DNA of 54,859 bases, from positions 1 through 54,859 of the forward strand of contig SVKS01000006.1 in NCBI GenBank assembly GCA_015068345.1. Reading direction: 5' to 3'. Each line of letters starts with the position of its first letter. The stretch's first letter is position 1. Of this stretch, positions 16,016-23,440 are shown in pieces. The stretch comes from Oscillospiraceae bacterium. GTDB lineage: Bacteria > Bacillota > Clostridia > Oscillospirales > QAMX01. The position numbers were made by a program, and so were the translations under genes. A model generated the notes under the pieces. The model ran no database searches. It was given only the letters and a program-made list of their open reading frames with translations, and had not been told where the DNA came from.

Positions 16016-18451
16016 ATGGCAACCTGTATCAATCTGAACGGCACCTGGACTTTAACGGGAGTCGATGAATTTGGAAAAGCTCTTGCCCTGCCGGGGACTG
16101 TGCCGGGATGTGTACATACCGATCTGCAGGCAAACGGCATCGTGGGGGACTTCTTTTGGCGTGACAACTCCAAAAAAGTGCAATGGATTGAAAATCACGA
16201 TTTTACCTATACCAAAACCTTCATACTGAACGAGGTGGCGGAAAATGCCTGGCTGGAATTTGACGGGCTGGATACCTACACTACCATCCTCCTGAATGGG
16301 AAAGTGGTGAGGGAGACCGACAATATGCATATTCCCCACGCCTTCCAGGTGGACGGTTTACTGAAAACCGGGGAGAACACCCTGGAGGTACGTTTTGATT
16401 CCCCCATCCGCCGGGTGGAGGGGCTACCGCTCCATCCCGGTGCCTTCACCCAGGAACGCATGAATACCCGCCGCATCCAATGTACCTACAGCTGGGACTG
16501 GGTGGACCGTTTTGTCACCATGGGCATTTACCGGGACGTGCGCCTGGTCTTCCGGGGACAAAACGAGGTGGAATCCTGCTATATCTATACTGCGGATATC
16601 AACCCCTACGCCGCCCAGCTCAAGCTGGAGGTGGCCTTCCGGGATTTTGTTGACCTGGGGGACACTGTTACCATGAAGATTCAGGACCCGGATGGAAACG
16701 TCATTTTCCAAAAGGAACGTACCATTCTCCAGGATCATCTTTATGAATATATCGATGTGGTTTCTCCAAAGCTCTGGTACCCCCTGGGCTATGGAGAACA
16801 GCCCCTCTATACACTGAGCCTTACCACAAAAACCTCCCAAAAGACCAAAAAATTCGGAATCCGAAAGATTACCGTTTTGCAGATTGAGGATCCGGTGGGA
16901 AGCGAGGCCTATAACCTTTGCCGGGCCATGCAGGAGGAGGATCACCTGAAGGGTTGTGATTTCAATCAATCCACCGCTTGCTTTACCGTGCTGGTGAACG
17001 GGGTGAAGATCATGTGCAAGGGAGCCAACTGGGTGCCCTGCGATCCCTTCCCCTCGGCGGAGAGCCCCGAAAAGATCACCCGGCTCCTGGAGCTGGGCGT
17101 GGCTGGGGGCTTCAACATGCTCCGGGTCTGGGGCGGCGGCATTTTTGAACGTGATGAATTCTACGCCGAATGCGACCGCCTGGGTATTTTGGTGACCCAG
17201 GATTTCCTGATGGCCTGCGGGGAATACCCGGAGGACGAGGATTGGTTCATCCAAGCCCTGAAAAAGGAAGCCACGACGGCGGCTCTGCGTCTTCGCAACC
17301 ACCCCTGCCTGGCCTTCTGGAGCGGGGACAACGAAAACGCCGTCCACGGCAACGAAAACCGTACCGATTTCCCGGGTTACAGCTCGGCGGCATTGGGCAT
17401 TGAGCCGGTGATCGCCCGCCTGGACCCCAACCGCCGCTTCTTCCCCTCCTCCCCCTATGGCGGCGACCACTACTGCAGTGCCACCCGGGGAACCACCCAC
17501 AATACCTTCTACCTGGGGTCGATGTTTGCCTATATCCAGGAAAGCGATTTCACTGACTACCGGGCCTACTTTAACAAGTTTATCTCTCGTTTCTGTGCCG
17601 AACAGCCCTCCTTTGGTCTGTCCTTCGTGTCGAGCCTTCGGAAATATATGACCGAGGAGGATATTTTTGGGGATGACCCCGGCATGATCGAATTCCACAG
17701 CAAAACCAATCCGGGTCTGCCCAGTACCCTCTTCCATATTACCAATACCATGGCCCAAAAGATCTTTGGGGATTTTGAAAACGGAGTCGACCGGGTCCGT
17801 AAACTTCAAATGCTCCACTGCGAATGGACCCGCATCTCCTTCGAGCTATACAGACGCCACAAGGGCTTTGATTGGGGTATGATCTACTGGATGTTCAACG
17901 ATTGCTGGCCTGCCGCCGGTGGTTGGGCCTTCTTAGACTACTACGCCTGTCCCAAGCCCGCTTATTACGTCTTCAAGCGTTGCGCCGCGCCGGTGGTGGC
18001 CACCCTGGCGGAGGAGGGGGGCAAGCTATCCCTCCACGTCAGCAACGACGCCATGGAAACGGTTTCCGGCAGTGCCGCCATCTATTGCCATAACGTCGTC
18101 ACAGGGGTGGATACCCCCGTTGTCGAGGTGCCCTTCCGGGTGGATGAAAACGCCGCCGTCAGGGTGTGGGAAGGGAACATGGTACCCACCGACGAAAATA
18201 CCATCCTCCTTTGCGACCTGACCTCCACCCTAGGGAATGACCGGTGCTTCCTGGTGGTTGACCGCTATAAGGATACCACCATGACCTACGCCGACCCCAT
18301 CCTCCTTTCGGAAAGCGAGGAAGAGATTACCGTTACCGCCGATCGCTTCCTGCCCTATGCCATGCTGGACGTACCCTATCTCCTTTCGGAAAACTGCTTC
18401 CCCCTGAAAAAGGGAGAATTGAAAACCGTAAAGAAGATCGGAAGACTCTGA
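16016..18451 (+). CDS. Beta-mannosidase, GH2
   Basis: Exo-acting retaining beta-mannosidase that trims mannosyl residues from manno-oligosaccharides or glycans in the cytoplasm; no signal peptide is visible. The 811 residues follow the GH2 plan: N-terminal jelly roll with WLEFDGLDTYTTILLNG, an immunoglobulin-like domain, a TIM barrel, and C-terminal sandwich domains. MLRVWGGGIFERDEFY and FWSGDNEN (acid/base Glu440) are typical of beta-mannosidases. The nucleophile is best placed at Glu529 in FCAEQPSFG, where most relatives read SEFG. The 89-residue gap between the two fits the family. The ATG at 16016 follows GGGAAGGAG. Confidence 0.92.
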   Translation: MATCINLNGTWTLTGVDEFGKALALPGTVPGCVHTDLQANGIVGDFFWRDNSKKVQWIENHDFTYTKTFILNEVAENAWLEFDGLDTYTTILLNGKVVRETDNMHIPHAFQVDGLLKTGENTLEVRFDSPIRRVEGLPLHPGAFTQERMNTRRIQCTYSWDWVDRFVTMGIYRDVRLVFRGQNEVESCYIYTADINPYAAQLKLEVAFRDFVDLGDTVTMKIQDPDGNVIFQKERTILQDHLYEYIDVVSPKLWYPLGYGEQPLYTLSLTTKTSQKTKKFGIRKITVLQIEDPVGSEAYNLCRAMQEEDHLKGCDFNQSTACFTVLVNGVKIMCKGANWVPCDPFPSAESPEKITRLLELGVAGGFNMLRVWGGGIFERDEFYAECDRLGILVTQDFLMACGEYPEDEDWFIQALKKEATTAALRLRNHPCLAFWSGDNENAVHGNENRTDFPGYSSAALGIEPVIARLDPNRRFFPSSPYGGDHYCSATRGTTHNTFYLGSMFAYIQESDFTDYRAYFNKFISRFCAEQPSFGLSFVSSLRKYMTEEDIFGDDPGMIEFHSKTNPGLPSTLFHITNTMAQKIFGDFENGVDRVRKLQMLHCEWTRISFELYRRHKGFDWGMIYWMFNDCWPAAGGWAFLDYYACPKPAYYVFKRCAAPVVATLAEEGGKLSLHVSNDAMETVSGSAAIYCHNVVTGVDTPVVEVPFRVDENAAVRVWEGNMVPTDENTILLCDLTSTLGNDRCFLVVDRYKDTTMTYADPILLSESEEEITVTADRFLPYAMLDVPYLLSENCFPLKKGELKTVKKIGRL

Positions 18452-18461
18452 TAATGATAGA

Positions 18462-18498
18462 AAAGCTCCCCTTTGTCACACCGACAAAGGGGAGCTTT
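18462..18498. terminator. Bidirectional terminator, GH2 / MFS exporter
   Basis: Perfect 16-bp stem (AAAGCTCCCCTTTGTC / GACAAAGGGGAGCTTT) with a 5-nt loop between convergent genes. Confidence 0.9.
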
Positions 18499-18519
18499 AT
18501 GACTTGATTTGTGAATTGC

Positions 18520-19821
18520 TTAATCTTCCGGAGGAAACTCCTTTTTGCGGGAACGGAACCAGAAGAAAAAGCTGATACCCGACCCCAAAAGCCCCACCAG
18601 GAAGAATTGCAGGGAAATACCGGCTCCTTCACTTCCGCCAAATACACGGGACAGCGCACGGACCAAGCCGGAAGTTCCGGTCATGATGGGATCGAATATC
18701 CCATCCGCCAAAATGCCGCCCAGGAAGATTCCCAGGGGAATGAAGATGTTTTGCAGGGTGTCCCGGGCGGAAAACACCCGTCCCTGCAGGGAAAGGGGGA
18801 CGTGGGTACGCATGAAGGCACCCAGGAGGATGTTCATCCATGCCGCAAGACTATAGGCCAAAAAGGCAGAAAGACACCACACCAGGGGGGGATTGCTCAA
18901 GCTGAGGGTTAAGTTGCCCAAAAAGAGCAATCCACAGGTGAAGTAGATGAAGGAAAGCGGCCTCTTTGGGGGCTTGGACCAGGCAGCAAGCAAACTGCCA
19001 AACAGAAGTCCAACAGCCATACAGCTTTGCACCATCCCCAGAACAGACTGGTTGCCGCCTGATTTGGCCAGTACAAGGACTGAAACCATGCCGTTTTCCC
19101 CGATCTTAGCCAAAAAATTGATCAGAGTAAAAAACAGGATCAGCCGCAGAAGAACCGGTTGCTTCCCAAGGTAACGAATTCCCGAAAGACAGGCCTGCAG
19201 GAATGGCTCCTTTTTCTCCTGGATTTCCGATTCGCTCTTCGGGATGCGGATCAAGAGGAGTAGCGGGAAAAAGGCAATGCCAAAGCTGAAAAGATCCAGG
19301 GTCAATACCAGCTCCAAGCCGCCGAAGGCGAAAACCATGCTTCCCAATACCGGGGCCAAAATGGAAATAATGGCGTTGGAAGCCGATTGCAAGCCCTCGG
19401 TTTTGGCGTATGCTTCCCGGGGAACCAACAGGCTGGTTGCCACGTAGGCGGCGGGAACCTGGAAAGCATTCATGAAGCTAAGCAGGAACTGGATAACGTA
19501 AAGGTGCCAAATAGCAAGCCGGGACAGCACCAATAATCCAAGGGTGATGGCGCTGCCACAGGCGGCGGCCAGATCGCACACCAGCATGATGCACTTTTTG
19601 TCCATCCGGTCTGCTATGGCACCCGCCAGAAAGCGGAAGAGTATGGTGGGTAAAAAGGAACACAGGGTCAGGGTGGCAACGCTGGATGCGGTGCCATGGG
19701 CCTGGTAAATCCAAACCACCAGGGCGTAATTGGTCATGGCGGTACCCAGGGCGGATATCGCCTGGGTGGACCATAAAATCAAAAAGGGTCGTAACGAACG
19801 AAAAGACAAATTCTTTTGCAT
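18520..19821 (-). CDS. MFS exporter, macrolide-efflux (Mef/MFS_3) type
   Basis: A 433-residue twelve-helix major facilitator. The pattern FLAGAIADRMDKKCIML after helix 2 and the NAFQVPAAYVATSLLVPRE stretch are characteristic of the MFS_3 group that contains Mef macrolide pumps and enterobactin-type exporters. Drug efflux is therefore the best guess, though the substrate cannot be told. The ATG at 19821 follows AAGGAG at 9-nt spacing. The ribosome site and start are bounded by one arm of a 10-bp inverted repeat, and a 20-codon candidate leader ORF lies upstream, so expression may be controlled by translation of that leader. Confidence 0.87.
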   Translation of the reverse strand: MQKNLSFRSLRPFLILWSTQAISALGTAMTNYALVVWIYQAHGTASSVATLTLCSFLPTILFRFLAGAIADRMDKKCIMLVCDLAAACGSAITLGLLVLSRLAIWHLYVIQFLLSFMNAFQVPAAYVATSLLVPREAYAKTEGLQSASNAIISILAPVLGSMVFAFGGLELVLTLDLFSFGIAFFPLLLLIRIPKSESEIQEKKEPFLQACLSGIRYLGKQPVLLRLILFFTLINFLAKIGENGMVSVLVLAKSGGNQSVLGMVQSCMAVGLLFGSLLAAWSKPPKRPLSFIYFTCGLLFLGNLTLSLSNPPLVWCLSAFLAYSLAAWMNILLGAFMRTHVPLSLQGRVFSARDTLQNIFIPLGIFLGGILADGIFDPIMTGTSGLVRALSRVFGGSEGAGISLQFFLVGLLGSGISFFFWFRSRKKEFPPED

Positions 19822-19937
19822 AGACTTTGCTCCTTATACCATGTTATTTATACAGGAAACAGCAAAGTCTGACGGGGACGGTATCACTCCCTTTCGGGAA
19901 GAGTCCGCTCCGCGCACCTACCGTCCCAAATCAGACT
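19822..19937 (-). promoter_or_regulatory. Structured leader of the MFS exporter with competing hairpins
   Basis: Read on the minus strand, AGTCTGA (19937-19931) can pair with TCAGACT (19872-19866), enclosing a 9-bp stem GGGACGGTA (19927-19919) / TACCGTCCC (19883-19875). The overlapping segment AGACTTTGCT (19870-19861) is also a perfect complement of AGCAAAGTCT (19831-19822), which touches the ribosome site and abuts the ATG of the exporter. The two pairings exclude each other, as in attenuators. I recognise no known riboswitch. Confidence 0.55.
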
Positions 19938-19993
19938 GTGCGCGAAGCTGTGCCTTGTGCGGCAAAAGAACCAAAGAAGTAGGGGTTGATCAT
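19931..19993 (-). CDS. Candidate 20-codon leader peptide before the MFS exporter
   Basis: An ATG with AAAGGAAAA upstream opens a 20-residue frame, MINPYFFGSFAAQGTASRTV. It begins 15 nt after the end of the acyltransferase-like gene. Its last codons and stop overlap the first arm of the leader hairpin that precedes the exporter gene. Small peptides in this position control efflux and resistance genes in Firmicutes by ribosome stalling. I do not recognise this peptide from any known case. The assignment rests on ribosome site, position and overlap only. Confidence 0.4.
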   Translation of the reverse strand: MINPYFFGSFAAQGTASRTV

Positions 19994-20013
19994 AATCGTT
20001 TTCCTTTCGTGAC

Positions 20014-20916
20014 TTACAGGACACGGAGTCCGGTACCGCCGCCAACCTTACCGCCTGCTTTCAGGTGGGTCTTGAAGGCGCGCCGGACCGAAGTATCCTC
20101 GGGGTAGTCGTCGAAGCTTCCGGTGTAGTCCATGTCGAAAAGCCGCCACATATCGCCGTAGCTGCCGCTTTCGTCCACACCGAATTTTACCAGGTTGAAC
20201 TCGGTGATAAACCGACGGATATTGCTCTTTTCGGGGAGAATATCCAGGTTCTCGGGGTAAAGGAGCCAACTGGCGCAAACGAATACCACCTTACCGTCGA
20301 TCCAGGCTTCCTTGAAAAAGTCCTTGGCCATGGCGTAGGAGGCGTCGCAGCTTGCCTTGTCGATGGGAGTGAGGGTGCGGGGAATGTGCACGTTGATGAG
20401 CTTGGTTTCGTTCCGCAGTACCAGACCGTTCAGGGTACAGGGATTGGTGGGAATACGGCCATCTGCCGTTACAAGCTCAAATTGCAGCCGACCCAGGGCG
20501 AAGCGGGTCAGGTTGAAAAAGCCCCCGAACCACCCGGCAACAAAACTGCCCCATATATTCTTGACAGCCTTGCATTCCCAAAGCTTGTATTTTAGATCGC
20601 ACATGCTGTCGTACCAGATCTGGTCGGCAATGCCACGCTCCCGGTAAAGGGTGCGAAGGTGGCGGGAAAGACAGATGAATAGCAGGAGCCGGACGGAGTA
20701 GCTGTGGAGCCCGGTTTTGAGGGCGATGTCATCGCAGGCTTCCAGGGCGGCGTTGAAGTCGCAGTTATAGTCGGCCTCATAGCGGGCCATCAGCTCCTGC
20801 CATGCGGCTGCTGTGGCGGGGGCCGCCGTGATGGTGTCGTAGGCATTCAGCAGAACCTCCCGGCTTTCGGCGGGGTAGTCGAAATCGGTGAAAAAGGTAT
20901 TCAGATAGGATCGCAT
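20014..20916 (-). CDS. Conserved protein, probably acyltransferase-like (GNAT-type C-terminal domain)
   Basis: A 300-residue soluble protein. It resembles a family found widely in gut Clostridia, described as having an N-acyltransferase N-terminal domain followed by a GNAT-like C-terminal domain; I recognise it from overall pattern (NVHIPRTLTPIDKASCDASYAMAKDFF region and FVCASWLLYPENLDILPEKS), not from a catalytic motif. No signal peptide or membrane helix is seen. It follows a sugar-isomerase-like gene by 22 bp and precedes the exporter leader, so all may share one transcript. Function is unknown. Confidence 0.6.
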   Translation of the reverse strand: MRSYLNTFFTDFDYPAESREVLLNAYDTITAAPATAAAWQELMARYEADYNCDFNAALEACDDIALKTGLHSYSVRLLLFICLSRHLRTLYRERGIADQIWYDSMCDLKYKLWECKAVKNIWGSFVAGWFGGFFNLTRFALGRLQFELVTADGRIPTNPCTLNGLVLRNETKLINVHIPRTLTPIDKASCDASYAMAKDFFKEAWIDGKVVFVCASWLLYPENLDILPEKSNIRRFITEFNLVKFGVDESGSYGDMWRLFDMDYTGSFDDYPEDTSVRRAFKTHLKAGGKVGGGTGLRVL

Positions 20917-21912: not shown

Positions 21913-22283
21913 AATCTCAATCGGGAATGGTCTTTCCGAAGCAAGATATTCCGACCGCCGGAGCTTTTCCGGCAAAGTAGGCCATACGGACAGCCGGGTC
22001 GAATGCCGAAGACCGCGGAATGCGGTTGGCAACTTCTGTTGCCTTATTGATTGAGTTAGAAGCTCAGTTTTATAAGTTGGTTACTATAAACCAGTGCCTC
22101 GCGCAAAACTTGTGAAATGGTCAATAAGAGTAGTAAAAGTAATCTTTGCTATATAGACTCTGGTCCCATTGTGATTTGTACCTGCCTGTTAGAGTGGAAG
22201 ACCTCCCCGGGGGGAGAGCAGAACAGACATGGAGAATATCGCCTTTCCAAGTGACGTGCCGCATTGGCAACGTCACTTTTTTT
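21913..22283 (+). ncRNA. Unidentified ~370-nt structured leader or small RNA upstream of potABCD
   Basis: The stretch lies between a strong promoter and a strong terminator and has no convincing gene. It can fold into many hairpins: GCCGGA/TCCGGC near 21957-21973, ACCGC/GCGGT (22012-22026), GGCAAC/GTTGCC (22028-22043), GAG/CTC (22053-22065), GGTT/AACC (22079-22092), and a stem joining CCTGCCTGTT (22181-22190) to AACAGACATGG (22222-22232). GGTCTT (21929-21934) pairs with AAGACC (22009-22014). It shows no tmRNA, RNase P, SRP or 6S signatures that I know. It may be a separate RNA or a regulated 5' leader of the polyamine operon. Confidence 0.5.
22249..22283 (+). terminator. Intrinsic terminator just upstream of potA
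   Basis: AAGTGACGT (22249-22257) pairs with ACGTCACTT (22270-22278), extended by GCC/GGC, then seven T. It ends 32 bp before the potA ATG, so it must be bypassed for pot expression unless another promoter exists. Confidence 0.9.
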
Positions 22284-22315
22284 GTTATGGAAATACGGAA
22301 GAAAAGAGAAACGGT

Positions 22316-23440
22316 ATGAAGAAGATCATTGAACTCAAAAACATTTCCAAAGCCTTCGATGGTGAAATGGTGCTGGACAACATTAGTCTGGACATCTACG
22401 ACAACGAGTTTATCACCCTGCTGGGTCCCTCCGGATGTGGCAAGACTACAACCCTTCGGATGATCGGAGGTTTTACCCAGCCCGATACCGGCGACGTGAT
22501 CTTCATGGGCGACCGTATCAACGACGTGCCTCCCCACAAACGCAACGTCAACACCGTATTCCAGCGCTATGCCCTGTTTCCCCACCTGAATGTGTTTGAA
22601 AATATTGCCTTCCCCCTGCGGGAAAAGAAGGTTCCCAAGAAGGAAATCAATGAAAAGGTCAACGAAATGTTGCGGCTTGTGATGCTCACCGGCTTTGCCG
22701 ACCGCCGGGTGACCAGCCTGTCGGGCGGTCAGCAACAGCGCGTTGCCATTGCCCGGGCGCTGGTCAGCCATCCCCAGGTTCTGCTTTTGGACGAACCCCT
22801 CGGCGCTCTGGACCTGAAGCTTCGCAAGGATATGCAGCAGGAACTCAAAAAGATCCAGAAGAGCACCGGCATCACCTTCGTCTTCGTTACCCACGACCAG
22901 GAGGAAGCACTCTCCATGTCGGATACCATCGTGGTTATGAGCGAGGGTAAGATCCAGCAGATCGGCACCCCCACCGACATCTACAACGAGCCGGAAAACG
23001 CCTTTGTTGCCGATTTCATCGGCGAAAGCAACATCCTGGACGGCGTTATGCTGGAGGATTACAAGGTTCGCTTCGCCGGTCAGGTCTTCTCATGCCTGGA
23101 CACCGGGTTCGAAAAGAACGAACCGGTGGACGTGGTGGTTCGTCCGGAGGACGTGGATATCGTCCCGGTGGAAAAGGGTATGCTTTCGGGTGTTGTCACC
23201 TCGGTGACCTTCCTGGGGGTGCATAACGAAATTATTGTGGATATCAACGGCTTCAAGTGGATGATCCAAACCACCGACAGCGTCAATGAAAATGAAAAGA
23301 TCGGCCTCTTCCTGGAACCCGATGCCATTCATATTATGAAGAAGTCGAAGTATTCCGGCATGTTCGGCGACTACTCCTCCTTCTCCGATGAAATGGAAGA
23401 AATCTCCAATCCCGATCCGGAAGGTGGGACGGAAGAATGA
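22316..23440 (+). CDS. potA: Spermidine/putrescine ABC transporter, ATP-binding subunit
   Basis: Cytoplasmic ATPase that powers polyamine import. The 374 residues carry Walker [10 protein letters not shown] (37-45), Q-loop Gln83, signature LSGGQQQ (135-141), Walker B VLLLDEP, H-loop His193, and a C-terminal TOBE-type regulatory domain ([12 protein letters not shown]). The ATG at 22316 gives the family N-terminus; its ribosome site is poor (GAGAAACGGT). An in-frame ATG at 22229 would add 29 residues but read through the terminator hairpin. It opens a four-gene operon, with a 4-bp overlap to potB. Confidence 0.95.

Follow-up and report, generated by a model that had tools for sequence, protein, structure and literature searches.

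Upstream of an MFS exporter gene, the stretch of DNA analysed here (the window, 54,859 nucleotides from an Oscillospiraceae bacterium) carries a short open reading frame (ORF) followed by overlapping inverted repeats. Does translation of this ORF decide access to the exporter start, as a preliminary description made from the sequence had proposed, and if so, what would be sensed? We consider it highly probable, on the basis of comparative analysis and folding models, that the element is a ribosome-mediated translational attenuator in which a drug-stalled leader ribosome would free the exporter start. The architecture of the element, its conservation and covariation, the mutual exclusion of its helices and their modelled switching were computed; the stall, its cause and the substrate of the exporter we infer.

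Organization of the locus

In the 5' to 3' direction of the minus strand, the locus consists of an acyltransferase gene, the leader ORF with its Shine-Dalgarno (SD) sequence, 109 nt and the exporter start at position 19821 (Table 1). The 20-codon leader with its ribosome site was correctly described at first sight, as was the stem that overlaps its end: the helix named P2 here pairs AGTCTGA (19937-19931) with TCAGACT (19872-19866) and GGGACGGTA (19927-19919) with TACCGTCCC (19883-19875). Equally exact was the observation that the second arm also pairs perfectly over 10 bp with a segment at the exporter SD sequence (helix P3). AGACT is common to the P2 and P3 pairings, so that the two folds cannot coexist, as the preliminary description stated. 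It counted two helices, both of them real, and missed a third, P1, which surrounds the leader end, belongs to the minimum-energy fold and is, like P3, incompatible with P2.

Table 1. Features of the exporter locus in the window (coordinates of the forward strand)
Feature	Position	Strand	Basis
Ribosome binding site of the leader ORF, AAAGGA	20002..20007	-	Sequence; 8 nt upstream of the leader ORF
Leader ORF, 20 codons, MINPYFFGSFAAQGTASRTV-stop	19931..19993	-	Sequence; homologous leaders in relatives
P1 5' arm, GCTTCGCGCAC, leader codons A-S-R-T	19938..19948	-	Minimum-energy fold; covariation
P1 3' arm, GTGCGCGGAGC	19907..19917	-	Minimum-energy fold; covariation
P2 5' arm (anti-sequestor): leader end, stop codon and GGGACGGTA	19919..19941	-	Covariation; held-out test
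P2 3' arm, TACCGTCCCcgTCAGACTTTGC	19862..19883	-	Covariation; held-out test
P3 5' arm, AGACTTTGCT, shared with P2 and hence exclusive	19861..19870	-	Sequence; covariation
P3 3' arm, AGCAAAGTCT, overlaps the exporter SD sequence and abuts its start codon	19822..19831	-	Sequence; covariation
Exporter SD sequence, AAGGAG	19830..19835	-	Sequence; nearly invariant in alignment A2
MFS exporter, 433 aa	18520..19821	-	Matches to Pfam MFS_1 and MFS_3; scores with TIGR00900 and Mef(A) fall short of the curated cut-offs

The fold is more stable than those of shuffled sequences (z = -2.65 for 196 nt, z = -4.7 for 19819-19948). A chance origin of the element is excluded because it is conserved across relatives (94 of 106 upstream regions) and all three of its helices covary.

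The upstream gene (20014-20916, minus strand) codes for a NAT_N/GNAT_C acyltransferase and ends 20 nt before the leader. No sigma-70-like promoter was found between the two, and the exporter may be transcribed here from a promoter further upstream. The acyltransferase was considered as a part of the system and rejected, since this neighbour of the exporter is not conserved.

Among the named resistance families, the exporter is closest to the Mef-type macrolide exporters, far below their cut-offs (103.7 bits with the curated Mef(A) model, for which 675 is required). Its profile matched no solved structure at 1e-5. We regard it as a drug-exporter-like MFS_3/Mef-like protein whose substrate is putatively a drug.

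Distribution of the element

A single-sequence protein scan of genome contigs with the window exporter gave no matches, and it was an alignment query that found the relatives. DNA similarity alone recovers little: a direct DNA search yielded only one relative, and protein searches 80 named loci and many more genomes. The leader and P1 are present in 94 of the 106 extracted upstream regions with usable DNA; four of the 106 belong to distant MFS proteins, so that 94 of about 102 close MFS relatives carry the leader and the hairpin. In two further regions (L070 and L085) the element is present by eye. Orthologous exporters lacking it, which the preliminary description had named as evidence against its reading, do exist but are few: the element is clearly absent upstream of at least five close relatives, L017, L056, L064, L120 and L124. 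Isolates that carry it include Hungatella effluvii, Lacrimispora celerecrescens, Monoglobus pectinilyticus and Subdoligranulum variabile.

Scans with the covariance model R1, built on P1 and P3 only, without P2, covered 391 genomes from the class and 299 from the phylum. Every match at E<1e-8 in these approximately 690 genomes directly precedes this MFS exporter. At L163, a weaker match, no more than a short 3' piece of the exporter gene remains downstream, apparently as the result of a deletion.

Conservation and covariation of the helices

In 84 non-redundant elements, the duplexes formed with an arm's own partner are stronger than those formed with partners from other species (P1, z = -11; P2, z = -15; P3, z = -14; 0 of 2000 permutations in each case). 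In the 59-sequence alignment A2, the numbers of paired cells and double-change pairs and the covariation score exceed those of all 500 shuffles, both for P1 and P3 together and for P2, and sliding the partner by 1-3 columns lowers pairing from more than 92% to less than 49%. As kinship among sequences may inflate such shuffles, P2 was tested on 17 held-out elements, most of them found with R1 and two through a plasmid protein search. Although absent from R1, P2 still favours its own partner in these (z = -5.1, 0 of 5000). P3 alone is not significant in the same 17 elements (601 of 5000), because its core is nearly invariant. Covariation in related genomes, suggested at the outset as a check, is thus found for all the stems.

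The leader is constrained at two codons

Leader codons were numbered relative to codon 0, the Ala codon at which P1 begins. The leaders of all 84 non-redundant relatives have an SD-like match, with a score of 4 or more in 82 of them. The distance from the leader start to P1 is exactly 7 codons in 51 elements and 15 codons in another eight. Together with the covarying helices, this retention of an ORF at a near-fixed distance from the hairpin supports the attenuator originally proposed.

Two types of leader can be distinguished. Type B, found in most relatives, has about 12 residues and the consensus M-x-L-C-I-[AV]-x-A-P-C-[KR]-[VA]-stop; type A has about 20 residues and endings such as AADVFAPRKV. 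The window leader, which ends in AAQGTASRTV, is a divergent type A. The impression that this peptide is unlike known ones needs refining, since the type to which it belongs is common. Both types occur in the genome of the window: contig C86 (L022, L142; G000:C86:20458-20573) carries another element, of type B, together with an exporter that is 40% identical to that of the window.

In type B leaders, the synonymous share of single-base differences is 0.76 at codon -5 (0.34 expected) and 0.82 at codon -4 (0.16 expected), in pair counts that are not phylogenetically independent; no such excess is seen at codons -6, -3 and -1. From codon 0 on, the letters track pairing: with changes in P1, C at +2 gives way to R, H, Y or S. 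Judged from these sequences, amino-acid-level constraint is located at codons -5 and -4, and the C-terminal half of the leader is maintained chiefly at the level of the RNA, which different genes read in two frames. The other check suggested at the outset, on the leader, likewise speaks for the proposal: an ORF is kept, the residues of its second half mainly following the RNA.

A model for the switch

At rest, P1, which contains the last codons of the leader, and P3, which masks the SD sequence and start of the exporter, would form and the exporter would be little translated. A ribosome stalling early in the leader, with its P-site at about codon -3 (codon 13 in the 20-codon leader of the window and codon 5 in the 12-codon leaders of most relatives), would melt the 5' arm of P1 and free the leader end and stop codon to form P2. 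This would remove the arm required by P3 and open the exporter start (ON), while a ribosome at the leader end would cover the P2 arm and restore the OFF state. The stall would most likely be caused by an antibiotic acting at the peptidyl transferase centre (PTC), a phenicol-like compound being our first guess.

The model was examined by constrained folding with the ribosome footprint blocked along the leader. In type B elements, P2 beats P3 in 82% with the P-site at -3, a sharp optimum, and in 0% from +1 on. Without a stalled ribosome, the thermodynamic model gives P2 the advantage in 46%, near balance; the OFF state at rest would thus depend on modest energies and on kinetics outside the model. 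For the window, the predicted P2/P3 pairing is 2.8/14.4 bp in the absence of a stall; it becomes 24.4/10.0 bp when the P-site is at -3, and the switched state persists throughout -4 to 0. The start region is predicted to open only partly under stall (unpaired 0.27 to 0.39).

The predicted stall codon depends on where the footprint edge is placed, shifting by one for every 3 nt. With the standard edge, residue -4 is the penultimate residue of the stalled chain, and 67 of 84 elements have A, C or T there. Chloramphenicol and linezolid stall ribosomes best with a penultimate Ala and less with Ser or Thr (PMC8987054). The fit of residue -4 to this rule is suggestive only, as Cys, common at -4, lies outside the published Ala/Ser/Thr preference.

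Similar elements before other genes

Weaker R1 matches, with E of about 2e-6 to 8e-4, precede catA-like, Lsa-family ABC-F, Cfr and CD3324-family genes. The links to catA, lsa and cfr are few, with weak E-values (4e-6 to 3e-4): they concern the type A catA-like genes L153, L155 and L156, the Lsa-family gene L158 and the Cfr gene L160. By a rough calibration, about 0.7 R1 matches at E 0.001 would be expected by chance over 690 genomes, and the match L159 is probably of this kind. A search of 245 genomes for TIGR04432 (Cfr) found none, so the cfr link depends on the single locus L160. Homologues of the catA match added no more than the three elements, all in the closest CatA subgroup. Upstream of a further catA-like gene (L170), the leader MKRGLDEAF precedes a hairpin of another and simpler kind that covers the SD sequence; the leaders of L153 and L156 likewise begin with MKRGLD.

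At L152, L154, L157, L161, L164, L165, L166, L199, L211 and L212, genes of the CD3324 family (about 88 aa) come after leaders and hairpins that pair according to the same scheme; some members of the family have this element, and in others the leader is of a different kind or not obvious. The cfr, lsa and CD3324 elements, too, contain P2-like and P3-like pairings. The cfr, lsa and several CD3324 leaders read the conserved stretch in the other frame (e.g. LHAKS, not APCKV), which means that the common feature is the RNA and not the peptide end.

The identity of these genes suggests sensing of PTC antibiotics. It is possible, if rather doubtful, that a single RNA module sensing such antibiotics is reused in Clostridia, in two leader frames, before MFS exporters, catA, cfr, lsa-family ABC-F and small CD3324-family genes, and thereby defines an unrecognized antibiotic-response regulon in which the leader end doubles as the switching arm. 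A shared scaffold before cat, cfr, lsa-family and CD3324 genes would tie orphan genes to the antibiotic response.

What stalls the ribosome, and is it a stall?

The same switch could be induced not by a phenicol but by a macrolide, lincosamide, pleuromutilin or other ribosome-targeting drug, and we take this to be a serious possibility, somewhat short of an even one. The exporter's similarity to Mef-type proteins, however distant, would fit a macrolide; the products of cfr and Lsa-family genes counter several PTC drug classes; and lincosamides and pleuromutilins are sensed through the short leaders of ABC-F genes (PMC10201436). On the other hand, the leaders have no stalling motif of the MRLR type (compare MTASMRLR, PMC4335068), which argues against a macrolide, and the residues prevalent at -4 are near the published phenicol/oxazolidinone preference.

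A pause at scarce Cys or Ile codons during amino-acid starvation, involving no drug, could operate the same RNA, which would respond to any stall, and type B leaders are indeed rich in Cys (-4, +2) and Ile (-3). We nevertheless consider starvation very unlikely: type A leaders, including that of the window, lack Cys at -4 and Ile at -3, the Cys at +2 changes with P1 pairing, and elements of similar design are found before catA, cfr and lsa-family genes. Attenuation of transcription, known from the related mef/mel, cplR and vmlR systems, is most unlikely here. No terminator-like site was detected in 18400-20500, so control is probably at the level of translation; moreover, P3 extends as far as the start codon, and only 4 of 84 elements have a T run in the 25 nt that follow the AUG. 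A ligand-binding riboswitch or plain RNA structure with an incidental ORF would account for the very conserved RNA and the two-frame use of the leader 3' half, but is highly improbable in view of the SD-preceded leader start at a near-fixed distance from P1 and the synonymous-biased change at codons -5 and -4.

Comparison with known attenuators

In the attenuators of erm genes (ermC and others) and cat genes, a drug-stalled ribosome on a short leader ORF acts on mutually exclusive hairpins that hide the SD sequence of the resistance gene (PMC4335068). The present element shares with them a translatable upstream leader (SD, start, fixed P1 spacing, amino-acid constraint), and exclusive helices of which P3 hides the SD sequence and start of the main gene, P2 and P3 both covarying. 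In folding models, a stalled ribosome would tilt the fold towards ON. It differs from them in its leader sequences and in the predicted repression by ribosomes near the leader stop codon. When a switch of the ermC type is ON, the first hairpin contributes its 3' arm to the pairing with arm 3. Here, the ON pairing arm consists of the last leader codons and the stop codon, and lies in the loop of P1 and over its 5' arm; the element is therefore not of the ermC type, which does not speak against a translational attenuator.

The mef(E)/mel attenuator (leader MTASMRLR) also controls an MFS exporter of the Mef/MFS_3 kind by means of a leader, but its leader has the MRLR motif and it makes use of a Rho-independent terminator (PMC4335068), neither of which occurs here. 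Like cplR, vmlR and lsaA, Clostridial or Bacillota resistance genes induced by a stall on a short ORF, the exporter is preceded by such an ORF; their leaders, in contrast, are reported to have 3-4 residues (MR[I/M], MIN, MAGN), and cplR joins termination to SD sequestration (PMC10201436). No Rfam 15 family scores above its gathering threshold at the element. The best weak match near it, to uup RNA (RF03060), lies on the opposite strand with 16.9 bits, far below the gathering score of 36.8, and was discarded as probably due to chance. A search of open-licence papers found nothing relevant on the leader motif or on such an MFS attenuator. The element probably represents a new family and a topological variant of translational attenuation.

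If the model is correct, a widespread and undescribed inducible control of a putative drug exporter operates in common gut Clostridia, including Hungatella, Lacrimispora, Enterocloster, Monoglobus and many uncultured groups. Such switches conceal resistance in uninduced tests, and the leader sequence offers a testable prediction of the drugs that are sensed.

Another RNA in the window

SpF59/ldcC RNA (Rfam RF02440) was first described in Streptococcus. A match to this family above the gathering score (55.3 bits) is located at 21952-22009 on the plus strand of the window, about 0.2 kb upstream of a gene for a PotA-like polyamine ABC transporter ATPase (22229-23440). The family was detected in 8 of the 20 relatives searched, and at L220 it precedes a 97.5% identical ATPase; this RNA may be a cis-regulator of polyamine transport.
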